A DNA stretch of 64,000 bases from Chelatococcus sp. HY11 (GTDB lineage: Bacteria; Pseudomonadota; Alphaproteobacteria; Rhizobiales; Beijerinckiaceae): the NCBI RefSeq assembly GCF_018398335.1, contig NZ_JAHBRX010000001.1:992001-1056000 (forward strand). The letters are read 5' to 3'. Each line of letters opens with the position of its first letter. Position 1 is the stretch's first letter. This document shows, piece after piece, positions 55,188 to 60,689 of this stretch. The notes under the pieces are model-generated. The model did no database searches and was not told the origin of the DNA. It saw only the letters and a program-made list of their open reading frames with translations. A program made the position numbers and the translations under genes.

Positions 55188-55851
<664 letters not shown>

Positions 55852-57363
55852 ATGTACGAGATTCTCACCAATGCCGCTGTGCGCGAGGCCGATCAGCGCA
55901 CGATTGCCGCAGGGGTTCCCGGCTGGGAGTTGATGGAGCGGGCAGGGCGCGCCGTCGCGCACCAGGCAGCCGAGCACCTGCCGGCTGGGCGACGGGTGGT
56001 CGTCGTCTGTGGCCCAGGCAACAACGGTGGTGACGGCTTCGTCGCCGCGCGGATTCTAGCCGAGGAGGGATATCGGGTCTCGCTTCATCTGCTCGGCTCA
56101 CGGAGTGCGCTCAGCGGTGATGCGGCCTGGGCGGCGGGTACCTGGAGCGGGGAGGTCAGCCCCCTTGCAGCGATGGATCTCGCGGGGGCAGCCCTCGTCA
56201 TCGATGCGCTGTTCGGGACCGGGCTTTCGCGTGATCTAGACGGGGAGTCCGCCATCGCCATCAGGGCGATCAACGCGTCGAAGGTCCGCGTGGTCTCGGC
56301 TGATATCCCATCCGGGATCGACGGCGATACCGGCGCGGTGCGCGGGGTCGCCGTCATGGCGCATGAGACGGTGACCTTCGCGCGGCGCAAGCCCGGCCAT
56401 CTCCTTCTGCCCGGCCGGCTGCACTGCGGATCGGTTACTGTCGCCGACATCGGCATCAGCGACGGGACCATCGCCGCGCTTGCCTCGCCCTATGCCGCGA
56501 ACGCGCCGGGGCTGTGGTTGCCTGCCTATCACCGGCCGGAGGCTGCCGGCCACAAATACGGGCGAGGCCATGCGATTGTCGTCTCCGGTGGCATTGCCAC
56601 AACCGGCGCGGCCCGGCTTGCCGCGCGGGCCGCGCTGCGTGTCGGGGCAGGGCTCGTCACCGTCGCCTCCCCCCCAGCGGCCCTCGCGGTCAACGCGGCC
56701 CATCTCACAGCGATCATGGTCAGGCCAGTCGAGGGTCCCAGCGGGCTCGAAACACTGCTGTCCGATGAGCGCCTCAATGCGCTGGCTATCGGGCCGGGGG
56801 CTGGCGTGGGTGAGGATACACGCGGGCTGGTAAGGGTCGCTGCGGAGGCGGGGCGGGCACTTGTCATCGATGCCGATGGGCTGACGAGCTTTGCTGTCGA
56901 CGGTTCGGCTGGCCTCGCCGCCTTGGCATCGCTCATCCATGCTAAAGCGAAGCCCACCGTGCTGACGCCACATGATGGCGAGTTTTCGCGTCTTTTCAAA
57001 GATGTACGAGAGATTTCCGAAGCTCCTTCAAAGCTTCAGCGCGCGGTCGCGGCAGCGCGCCATACCGGCGCCGTCATTGTCCTGAAGGGGGCCGATACGG
57101 TGATCGCGAGCCCTGACGGGCGGGCGGTCATCAACGACAACGGCACGCCCTGGCTGGCGACCGCGGGAACCGGTGACGTGCTCACCGGCTTCATCACCGG
57201 GCTTCTGGCGCAGGGCATGCCCGGCCGCGAGGCGGCCGCCGCCGGCGTCTGGTTGCACGGGGCCGCGGCTCGCGCCTTCGGTCCTGGCCTTATCGCGGAG
57301 GATCTGCCAGAGATTTTGCCCACTGTGCTCAAGCGGCTTCTCGATCCCAGCGGGCGAGCATAG
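55852..57363 (+). CDS. nnr: Bifunctional NAD(P)H-hydrate epimerase / ADP-dependent dehydratase
   Basis: Repairs NAD(P)HX, the damaged hydrated form of NAD(P)H. The 503-residue fusion has an N-terminal YjeF_N epimerase domain (about 1-215) with LTNAAVREADQRTI, CGPGNNGGDGFVAAR and DALFGTGLSRDL, and a C-terminal dehydratase domain (about 225-500) with KYGRGHAIVVSGG, KPTVLTPHDGEFSRL, VLKGADTVIA and the nucleotide loop TAGTGDVLTGFITGLLAQG. Both domains look complete. ATG 55849 and 55852 are adjacent; the latter is better placed after GAGGGG. It ends five bases from the convergent oxidase-like gene. Confidence 0.95.
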   Translation: MYEILTNAAVREADQRTIAAGVPGWELMERAGRAVAHQAAEHLPAGRRVVVVCGPGNNGGDGFVAARILAEEGYRVSLHLLGSRSALSGDAAWAAGTWSGEVSPLAAMDLAGAALVIDALFGTGLSRDLDGESAIAIRAINASKVRVVSADIPSGIDGDTGAVRGVAVMAHETVTFARRKPGHLLLPGRLHCGSVTVADIGISDGTIAALASPYAANAPGLWLPAYHRPEAAGHKYGRGHAIVVSGGIATTGAARLAARAALRVGAGLVTVASPPAALAVNAAHLTAIMVRPVEGPSGLETLLSDERLNALAIGPGAGVGEDTRGLVRVAAEAGRALVIDADGLTSFAVDGSAGLAALASLIHAKAKPTVLTPHDGEFSRLFKDVREISEAPSKLQRAVAAARHTGAVIVLKGADTVIASPDGRAVINDNGTPWLATAGTGDVLTGFITGLLAQGMPGREAAAAGVWLHGAAARAFGPGLIAEDLPEILPTVLKRLLDPSGRA

Positions 57364-57368
57364 AGGCG

Positions 57369-58853
57369 TCAGGTCACTTCGAACCACGTTGCCATGCCGC
57401 CGCCAAGACGATCGAGGATCGCGGAACTGATCATCCATTTACCGGCGCCTTCGGTGATGAAGGCGATACGCACGGTTCGCCCGGCCGGGACGGCGATGGT
57501 GTCCTGCCAATAGGGCTCCCAGCCGTCATCGAGGGCGTGCAGAAGGCGCGCCGCGTGGCCATGGAGGTGGAGTGCCTGGAGGAACTCGGTCTTGTTGACG
57601 AAGCTCAGCACGACGGGTTTGCCCTCTCCCGTCGAGAAGAGGGGCTTGCGGGCGTCGGTGAACGCGACGCCGTTGATCCGCCAGATCCGCGACACCTCGC
57701 TTGGGGTGGGCTGGCCGGCTGCGACGCCCCCCTCAAGCACAAGATCAGCGCGCAAAGCTGATGCGAGATCAATAGCTTCCGGAAGGCTGTTGCCGGGGAG
57801 CTTTATGTCGCCGGCCTTGACGTTAGGTGAGGGGGCTCCCTCGGTCTTGATGGTGAGAAGTGGCAAGCCCGGACCCAGCACGGCCACGATATTGCCCGAG
57901 ACTCCCGCTTCCGTGGCGCAACGCAGGATCAGGTCCGCGCGATTGCCGGGCAGTAGCGCGAGAGTATCGCGGGCTGGCGGGAAGGGCTCGGCGGGCTGGC
58001 CATCAAGGGCGATGACCTCGACCGCGAATTTCTCGAAGCGCAGGCTGATCGGGCGGGCATTGGAGGCATTGAGGAGGCGCAGGCGTATCCGCCCGCCGGG
58101 AGCGATCGCAAAAGTTTCCGGGGCGGCCTGGCTGTTTACGGTCAGCCAGTTGCCGAGCCGGCCGACCGACCCGACGTCTTCGACCCTGCCGAACCCAGGA
58201 CGGATCTGGTTGTCATCGCCCAGCGCCCAGTCGTCGAGCACGATCGCGAGATCGGCATCCACAGCCGGGGGCTCTTCCTCGTCAACCACGAGAACGCCGT
58301 AGAGGCCGCGCTCGGTCTGTTCGGCGGCGGTGGCCGGGACCATGGAGCGATACCAGTAGGTGCCGGCGTCGCGCGGCGTGAAGCGGATCTCGCGGTCCGC
58401 GCCGGGCGCGAGAGGCTCCTCCGTCAAGCCCCCGACGCCATCGAACCGGTTGGCCACGCGCAAGCCATGCCAGTGCAGGGTGATGGGTTGCGAAATCCCG
58501 TTCTCGAGCTTTATCGCGAGTTCCTGGCCCTTCCTGATCCGCAGGAGAGGACCGGGCGAAGTCTCCTCGAAGCACCACAACTTAGTCGCATCCCCCGACG
58601 GTTTCAGTTGCCAGGGCACCTCCTGTGCACGCAAGCGCCGCGCGTTGACCGCTTGGGCGACACCTGCGGGTTGCGTTGCTGGCGGTGGCGACACGGAACG
58701 GGAGGTTTCACCGGCATCCTCCGCGCGTGCCTCTGCCGTCCGCGCTAATATGGTCGCCGCCAGGCCTCCCTGGAGAATCCGCCGTCTGGTCAATCCCGCG
58801 GAGATGGACCGGAATCTGGTTGCGCGCGTCGATTCTGAAGAGTCTGCCGGCAT
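57369..58853 (-). CDS. Tat-exported multicopper-oxidase-like protein lacking most copper ligands
   Basis: A 494-residue protein with three cupredoxin domains of the multicopper oxidase family. The twin-arginine signal TRRRILQGGLAATIL (about 22-36) targets it folded to the periplasm. Of the four copper motifs only parts remain: HWHG (127-130) and HLHGH (429-433) are intact, but the HSH motif is YRSM (near 168-171), the type-1 histidine before HLHGH is Gln, and the C-terminal HCHxxxH region reads SSAILDR (476-482), so the type-1 cysteine and most trinuclear ligands are gone. It is therefore unlikely to be an oxidase and more like FtsP/SufI, a copper-free division protein. ATG 58853 is chosen because the Tat signal then begins the protein. 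Confidence 0.85.
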   Translation of the reverse strand: MPADSSESTRATRFRSISAGLTRRRILQGGLAATILARTAEARAEDAGETSRSVSPPPATQPAGVAQAVNARRLRAQEVPWQLKPSGDATKLWCFEETSPGPLLRIRKGQELAIKLENGISQPITLHWHGLRVANRFDGVGGLTEEPLAPGADREIRFTPRDAGTYWYRSMVPATAAEQTERGLYGVLVVDEEEPPAVDADLAIVLDDWALGDDNQIRPGFGRVEDVGSVGRLGNWLTVNSQAAPETFAIAPGGRIRLRLLNASNARPISLRFEKFAVEVIALDGQPAEPFPPARDTLALLPGNRADLILRCATEAGVSGNIVAVLGPGLPLLTIKTEGAPSPNVKAGDIKLPGNSLPEAIDLASALRADLVLEGGVAAGQPTPSEVSRIWRINGVAFTDARKPLFSTGEGKPVVLSFVNKTEFLQALHLHGHAARLLHALDDGWEPYWQDTIAVPAGRTVRIAFITEGAGKWMISSAILDRLGGGMATWFEVT

Positions 58854-59090: not shown

Positions 59091-59175
59091 GCGGGCGTGG
59101 CGGAACTGGTAGACGCGCTGGATTTAGGTTCCAGTGACGAAAGTCGTGGGGGTTCGAGTCCCTTCGCCCGCACCA
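59091..59175 (+). tRNA. tRNA-Leu (anticodon UAG)
   Basis: An 85-base cloverleaf with 3' CCA encoded. Acceptor GCGGGCG pairs CGCCCGC; the D-loop carries TGGTAGACGCGC; the anticodon stem CTGGA/TCCAG encloses TTTAGGT with anticodon TAG; a variable arm (GACGAAAGTC) and the T-arm GGGTTCGAGTCCC follow. It reads CUA-type leucine codons. It lies between the oxidase-like gene and tig. Confidence 0.97.
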
Positions 59176-59252: not shown

Positions 59253-60689
59253 ATGCAGGCGACGCAAACCCGGGCCGATGGTCTGAAACGCGAGTTCAAG
59301 GTGGTGGTTCCGGCCGCCGAGCTGGAGACCAAGCTGGCAGGCGAGCTGTCTGGCCTGAAGGACAGGGTCCGCATCAACGGCTTCCGTCCCGGCAAGGTCC
59401 CCATGGCCCATCTGCGCAAGCTGTATGGCCGCGCGGTCATGGCTGACGTTGTTCAGAACACCGTCAATGAAGCCAACCGCAAGATCATTGAGGACAACTC
59501 CCTCAAGCTTGCCAACGAGCCGAAGGTAACCCTCTCCGAGGACAAGGACGAGGTCGAGGCCATCATGGAGGCCAAGGGCGACCTGGCCTATACCGTGGCG
59601 CTCGAGATCCTGCCGGCCTTCCAGCTCAAGGACCTGTCCGACATCGCGATCACGCGCGAGACGGCCGAGGTGACGGACGCGGAAGTGGACGAGGCGCTGA
59701 CCCGCATGGCGCGCCAGAACCGTGCTTTCGTCGCCAAGCCCGAGGGCGAGGCCGCCGCGACGGGCGACCGCGTGACGATCGATTTCGTGGGCACCATCGA
59801 TGGCGAAGCCTTCGAGGGCGGCTCCAGCGAGGGCGTCCAGGTCGAGATCGGCTCGGGTGGTTTCATCCCGGGCTTCGAGGAGCAGCTGGTCGGCGCCAAG
59901 GCTGGCGATGACGTGACTGTGAGCGCGACCTTCCCCGAGGAGTATCCCGCCAAGCAGTTGGCCGGCAAGTCGGCGAGCTTCGCTGTGAAGGTGAAGGACG
60001 TGTCCTCCGCGGCCGAAGTGACGGTGGACGAGGACTTCGCGAAGGGTTTCGGCCTCGAGAGCCTCGACAAGCTCAAGGAAGCCGTTCGTTCCAGCATCGA
60101 GCGCGACTACACGGCCCAATCCCGCCGCAAGGTGAAGAAGGTGCTGCTCGACGCGCTTGACGCGAAGTATGATTTCGAGCTGCCGCCGAGCCTCGTCGAG
60201 CAGGAGTTCGACGGCGTGTGGCGTCAGGTCGAGAACGACATGAAGCAGACCGGCCGCACCTTCGCCGATGACGAGACGACCGAGGAAGAGGCGAAGGCGG
60301 AATATCAGCGCATCGCCGAGCGCCGCGTGCGCCTTGGCCTCGTGCTCGCCGAGATCGGCGAGCAGGCGGCGGTGAAGGTCGCCGACGACGAGGTCACGCA
60401 GGCTGTCGTCGAGCGCGCCCGTCAGTTCCCCGGCCAGGAAAAGCTGGTGTGGGACTACTACCGCAAGAACCCGCAGGCCCTCGCGGAAGTGCGCGCGCCG
60501 ATCTTCGAGGAGAAGGTCGTCGACCACATCCTGTCGCAGGTGTCCGTGACGGATAACGTCGTGTCTCGTGAGGCTCTTTTCGCCGATGAGGAGAGCGAAT
60601 CCGACGGCGATGAAGGCAAGGACGCGAAGGAGGAGGGCAAGGCCGCTCCGAAGAAGGCCTCGCGTGCCAAGAAGAAGGACGGCGCCTGA
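59253..60689 (+). CDS. tig: Trigger factor
   Basis: Ribosome-bound chaperone and peptidyl-prolyl isomerase that first meets nascent chains. The 478-residue protein has the ribosome-binding N-domain with [16 protein letters not shown] (about 48-63), the FKBP-type domain (about 165-245, [17 protein letters not shown]), and a helical C-domain, ending in a charged Glu/Lys-rich tail. ATG 59253 ([15 protein letters not shown]) is the family start. A longer in-frame reading begins at 59097, but its first residues ([13 protein letters not shown]) are only the translation of the tRNA-Leu gene and must be discarded. It precedes clpP, clpX and lon, a common order. Confidence 0.95.

Follow-up and report, generated by a model that had tools for sequence, protein, structure and literature searches.

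The gene at positions 57369 to 58853 (minus strand) of the window, the whole 64,000-nucleotide stretch of Chelatococcus sp. HY11 DNA analysed here, encodes a protein that combines a modelled multicopper oxidase (MCO) fold with loss of the copper site. The loss extends through the whole family, which has a conserved genomic slot and forms a branch separate from that of FtsP, and the gene itself is under purifying selection. We think it probable that the family is an anciently copper-less, mainly vertically inherited pseudo-oxidase, exported by the Tat route to serve as a non-redox binding or scaffold protein in the periplasm.

An oxidase fold and its altered copper site

The initial annotation had placed this gene correctly as to position and strand, and the frame is open over 494 codons plus a stop. 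The 494-residue product is better supported than the 558-aa open reading frame that extends further upstream, because the ATG at 58853 is common to all four Chelatococcus sequences compared and single-base gaps lie just 5' of it in one of them. The closest titled record comes from Chelatococcus asaccharovorans (76%), and two genomes of the same genus are closer (86% and 84%). The host assembly (6.95 Mb, 6 contigs) carries two further MCO genes with HWHG and HCHxxxH, at C4:57343-57657 and C4:132714-133979 (the matches at C4 132714 and 133722 belong to a single ORF). The features of the gene, read from its motifs and from conservation counts, are as follows.

57369..58853, minus strand: gene of the copper-less, predicted MCO-fold protein, 494 aa plus stop, open frame
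58722..58853, minus strand: N-terminal region, residues 1-44, with a Tat-type motif TRRRIL (22-27) and then a hydrophobic stretch
58464..58475, minus strand: motif 1, HWHG, residues 127-130, both His retained
58341..58349, minus strand: motif 2, HxH replaced by RSM, residues 169-171
57555..57578, minus strand: motif 3, QALHLHGH (HxxHxHGH in MCOs), residues 426-433, with Gln in place of the type-1 His and HxHGH retained
57507..57530, minus strand: family-specific block DDGWEPYW, residues 442-449
57408..57428, minus strand: motif 4, HCHxxxH replaced by SSAILDR, residues 476-482

In a Pfam search the protein scores above the cut-offs of Cu-oxidase_3, Cu-oxidase_2 and Cu-oxidase. Structure prediction, which the initial annotation had suggested as a check, returned an MCO fold: the AlphaFold2 model, built from 48 sequences, has a mean pLDDT of 86.3 and a pTM of 0.84, with low confidence for residues 3-67, and the best 50 matches of both Foldseek and VIA-align are MCO-type structures. 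With VIA-align the MCO 6vow gives Z 50.6 (404 residues, 2.2 A), Lac15 (4f7k) 45.6, SufI (2uxv) 42.1 over 394 residues, and CueO about 41-44. A three-domain MCO fold is thus predicted with confidence, and the three cupredoxin domains of a catalytic MCO are found by Pfam, model and structural alignment alike. Among solved structures Lac15 is also the best sequence match (221 bits), with the same domain plan. The best NCBIfam matches, CopA and CueO, reach 126.7 and 112 bits, far under their cut-offs of 478.95 and 525; unlike those proteins, the window protein lacks the copper site.

With ligands assigned to the type-1, type-2 and type-3 sites as is standard for MCOs such as CueO, 7 of the 11 main copper ligands are gone. 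The exchanges described initially (HSH to RSM, the first His of motif 3 to Gln, HCHxxxH to SSAxxxR, with HWHG and HLHGH kept) were all confirmed. The accompanying statement that every type-1 ligand has been replaced holds for the three main ones, H>Q426, C>S477 and H>R482, but not for the axial Met487, which is retained, and the statement that most of the trinuclear ligands have been replaced went too far, since 4 of the 8 His remain, namely the type-2 pair H127 and H429 and one of the three His of each type-3 copper. Neither the His, Cys, His type-1 site nor the eight-His trinuclear centre of a catalytic MCO is intact. The protein is apparently exported by the Tat route, judging from its N-terminal pattern; the same type of pattern occurs in 122 of the 136 family rows with sufficient upstream sequence (one of the 137 is too short). 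The model, the Tat pattern and the selection and family-wide ligand data given below support the first proposal, by which the protein folds, carries an export signal and no longer transfers electrons as an MCO does.

Ligand loss and conserved residues in the family

Counts of ligand positions rest on a family set of 154 rows that was reduced to 137 distinct ones, among them the window protein, by removing rows of at least 97% identity; the host's own paralogues (L001, L003, L004), L177 and copies of the query (L002, L005, L117) were also left out of the counts. Family rows are all fetched MCO-like rows outside a list of non-family MCO matches, and since this list was drawn up after motifs and genomic place had been seen, the choice of the 137 rows was not a blind one. 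Two trees described below (SH-aLRT 91 and 90) serve as a check on the definition. Close orthologues keeping HCHxxxH and HSH, named at the outset as what would speak against an established loss, were sought and none was found: HCH occurs in 0/137 rows, and HxH at motif 2 and Cys at the type-1 position in 4/137 each. Alignment with relatives, likewise proposed at the outset, showed the substitutions to be conserved, Q426 in 120, R169 in 108 and R482 in 102 of the 137 rows, and among the retained His, H127 is present in 124, H429 and H431 in 126 each, and H129 in 96 (Q, Y, R or another residue takes its place in the other 41). Family rows retain between 1 and 6 of the 11 ligands (exactly 4 in 89/137). 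The loss is not a matter of chance, because all but two of the 76 distinct MCO rows from outside the family (74) have all 11 ligands; the exceptions are L126, with 10, and L171, a partial match. Copper loss as a general trait of alphaproteobacterial relatives was considered and rejected, the best-scoring relatives beyond the window's own family group being intact.

Ligand positions carry different residues in different branches. Four members (L034, L076, L081 and L203) retain the HxH of motif 2 but no type-1 site, as would be expected if the type-1 site had been the first to go. Three others (L195, L201 and L206, of group f1, presumably the GTDB family Beijerinckiaceae) have HWHG, RPS, (L/I/V)xMHVHG and HDDILEH, keep 6 of 11 ligands, and show an Asp pair in place of Cys-His. 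Both motif-1 His are lost in all 7 rows of groups f36 (which we take to be Bradyrhizobium) and f52, and the f52 rows have almost no copper ligand left; two slot occupants of the latter group, L263 (727-2169) and L307 (3851-5293), have DDGV for DDGW and share a long tree branch.

The initial claim that the changes are confined to ligand positions holds only in part, for the family also has a conserved block of its own, DDGWxPY, at residues 442-448. D442 and D443 are found in 137/137 rows, G444 and W445 in 134, P447 in 135 and Y448 in 126, and no more than 6% of non-family rows have the family residue at any one of the first four of these positions. All but two of the 154 family rows (152) match the pattern DD(G/E)(W/V/Y)xP, which none of 77 non-family MCO rows matches, nor does E. 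coli FtsP or CueO. Lac15 and the intact alphaproteobacterial MCOs differ from the family in this respect and in keeping the four copper motifs. F291 and P358 are likewise family-specific, and many non-ligand residues, D442 and D443 among them, are invariant across family rows.

The retained His bear on whether the protein could be a mononuclear metal protein, in which H127 and H429, with H129 and H431, would bind one Cu or Zn in a cavity flanked by R169, R482 and Q426; the window protein and its nearer kin in the family would then be mononuclear enzymes or carry a metal. The presence of H127, H429 and H431 in about 91-92% of rows may exceed what a purely structural remnant would require and leaves room for a metal, and in the window's own family group 105 of 120 rows have the type-2 pair and 87 all four His. 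The pair is found in only 10 of 17 rows from other family groups, however, H129 is the position replaced in 41 rows, and the f36 and f52 rows, none of which has a motif-1 His, preclude such binding as a function of the whole family. Since the set of lost ligands differs from branch to branch, a function common to all members is unlikely to depend on copper or on a single metal bound by the motif-1 His, and even for the window protein and its nearer kin we regard the metal-binding explanation as somewhat unlikely. What the family has in common is its fold, its signal and the DDGWxPY loop, and these features favour non-redox binding or scaffold work.

Genomic slot and relation to FtsP

In the window the gene order is glnA, glnB, nnrD, the MCO-like gene, tRNA-Leu, tig, clpP and clpX (the six protein neighbours were identified by Pfam domains). 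The nearest neighbours are the following.

55849..57363, plus strand: nnrD-like gene (YjeF_N and NAD(P)H-hydrate dehydratase domains), convergent with the MCO-like gene across a gap of 5 bp
59091..59175, plus strand: tRNA-Leu, between the MCO-like gene and tig
59253..60689, plus strand: tig (trigger factor), divergent neighbour past tRNA-Leu

An operon with tig or nnrD was rejected, the MCO-like gene being on the opposite strand to both. At least one of the six protein neighbours lies within the fetched flank at 77 of 80 titled loci. The family members L108, L109 and L110 have none of the six in their fetched flanks and have apparently moved.

Surveys anchored on tig covered further loci in hand-chosen genomes, 60 of the 116 with a tig match in the order (10 of the 60 stretches ended early at contig ends) and 20 of the 66 with one in the rest of the class. 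nnrD lies near tig at 34/60 and 17/20 of these loci, respectively, and an MCO-like gene is in the slot at 6/60 (groups f20, f36, f50 and f52) and at 0/20. Five of the six occupied slots have nnrD; L263 (f52) is without an nnrD match. At L262 an intact MCO lies farther off than the slot, and the intact alphaproteobacterial MCOs fetched with flanks are outside the nnrD-tig slot, in which they differ from the family. Occupied slots are known from the window's own family group and from these four other groups of the order, and in the slot of most other loci sampled none was found; follow-up stretches, chosen because their genomes had matches, brought more occupied slots, again from these four groups. 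When 76 selected loci are placed on a tree of GlnA+GlnB+NnrD, occupancy of the slot (41 loci) requires 4 changes and is confined to a 47-row branch (support 90), which also holds 6 unoccupied loci, from f16, f35 and a single row each of f36 and f50. In the trees the slot label also covers L108-L110, which are elsewhere, and members whose slot is presumed. The simplest reading is one insertion followed by a few losses, with modest inner supports.

The 63 family rows in a 98-row tree lie on one side of a branch with SH-aLRT 91; support for the family branch is 90 in an 86-row tree made without the ligand and DDGW columns and 72 when FtsP, CueO and the host's own paralogues are added, all three values coming from 'quick' searches with SH-aLRT only and lying below the 95% star. 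One further copper-less MCO, L177 (3992-5401, minus strand; f23), lies outside the slot; it has the motifs HFFG, LAPM, QPIHIHGH and HSLVAER, is without the DDGW block, and, once the columns of the ligands and of the block are omitted, a branch with support 83 sets it apart together with the family.

The comparison with FtsP/SufI of gamma-proteobacteria made in the initial annotation is apt as an analogy: both proteins have the MCO fold without a copper site, a Tat-type signal (in the window protein TRRRIL at 22-27) and a few remaining His of the centre. It does not extend to descent. E. coli FtsP pairs with CueO (99, starred), a constrained clade of the family with FtsP is rejected (p-AU 8.08e-05; the long FtsP branch weakens this test, yet does not undo it), and the window protein scores 70.3 bits against the cut-off of 581 of the NCBIfam FtsP model NF008135, below the equivalog level. 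FtsP also differs in its genomic place and, in E. coli, in having no DDGWxP pattern. Orthology with FtsP was rejected on the score and the tree test, and the copper loss of the window family is separate from that of FtsP.

These data weigh on the proposal that the window protein would act, by analogy with FtsP in E. coli, as a scaffold of the division septum, which is a special case of the preferred reading and overlaps it in probability. According to one report, SufI retains two His of the centre, copper was not seen, and a role as a septal-ring scaffold is favoured (PMC2661564); shared fold, signal type and lost copper site would agree with such a role. Set against this are the non-orthology just described, neighbours (nnrD, tRNA-Leu, tig) that are not division genes, and a slot in which no such gene turned up in most related families sampled, so that a division function seems quite improbable to us.

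Selection and possible function

By the NG86 method the window gene has a dN/dS of 0.143, 0.139 and 0.147 in comparisons with its three nearest congeners, for which nnrD gives 0.10 and tig 0.05-0.09; in comparison with C. albus, which is more distant, it is 0.28, and 0.27 for nnrD. Purifying selection acts on the gene within the genus. A recent decay was rejected, dN/dS being about 0.14 and HCH absent throughout, and a decaying gene kept by chance is an extremely unlikely explanation: ligands do differ between branches, and six empty slots within a mostly occupied clade suggest that the gene can be lost, but the low dN/dS, the many invariant non-ligand residues and the retention of slot neighbours at nearly all titled loci stand against it.

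Taken together, these observations are best accommodated by the pseudo-oxidase favoured above. Copper would have been lost long ago from an MCO-fold protein that has since passed mainly by vertical inheritance; the folded protein would leave the cytoplasm by the Tat route, as its signal pattern suggests, and carry out non-redox binding or scaffold work in the periplasm. The conserved DDGWxPY loop of domain 3 may be its contact site, and the leftover His, Arg and Gln of the old centre would form the lining of a polar cavity that serves structure or binds a small ligand. A bolder version, which we put forward tentatively and consider unlikely, is that the trinuclear cavity has been rebuilt as a mononuclear or anion site (H127, H429, H431, usually H129, R169, Q426 and R482), with the DDGWxPY loop in its service.

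Copper-less proteins of MCO fold are known in few places, FtsP and the insect MCORP among them, and the window family seems to add another that is separate in its phylogeny. In open-access literature, none of the matches listed concerned the family by title or abstract start, and the same was true of a search for Methylobacterium with MCO, transposon and twin-arginine; one for Rhodopseudomonas Tn-seq with MCO gave no match, and in the one paper matched by a guessed locus tag the tag belongs to another gene, for a RelA/SpoT enzyme. The insect protein, described in one report as MCO-like, as missing many copper ligands and as essential for the insect (PMC4203857), resembles the window family in this description and differs in being an animal protein.

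The family is widespread in a group that includes methylotrophic and plant-associated genera. It sets a trap for annotation, the window protein standing well above three Pfam multicopper oxidase cut-offs with its catalytic site gone, and the graded family members, with 1 to 6 of 11 ligands, offer a natural series for asking why an oxidase fold outlives its redox chemistry. If the cavity has indeed been rebuilt, an O2-reducing enzyme would have turned, in one part of the order only, into a protein that binds a ligand in the periplasm or into an enzyme other than an oxidase.
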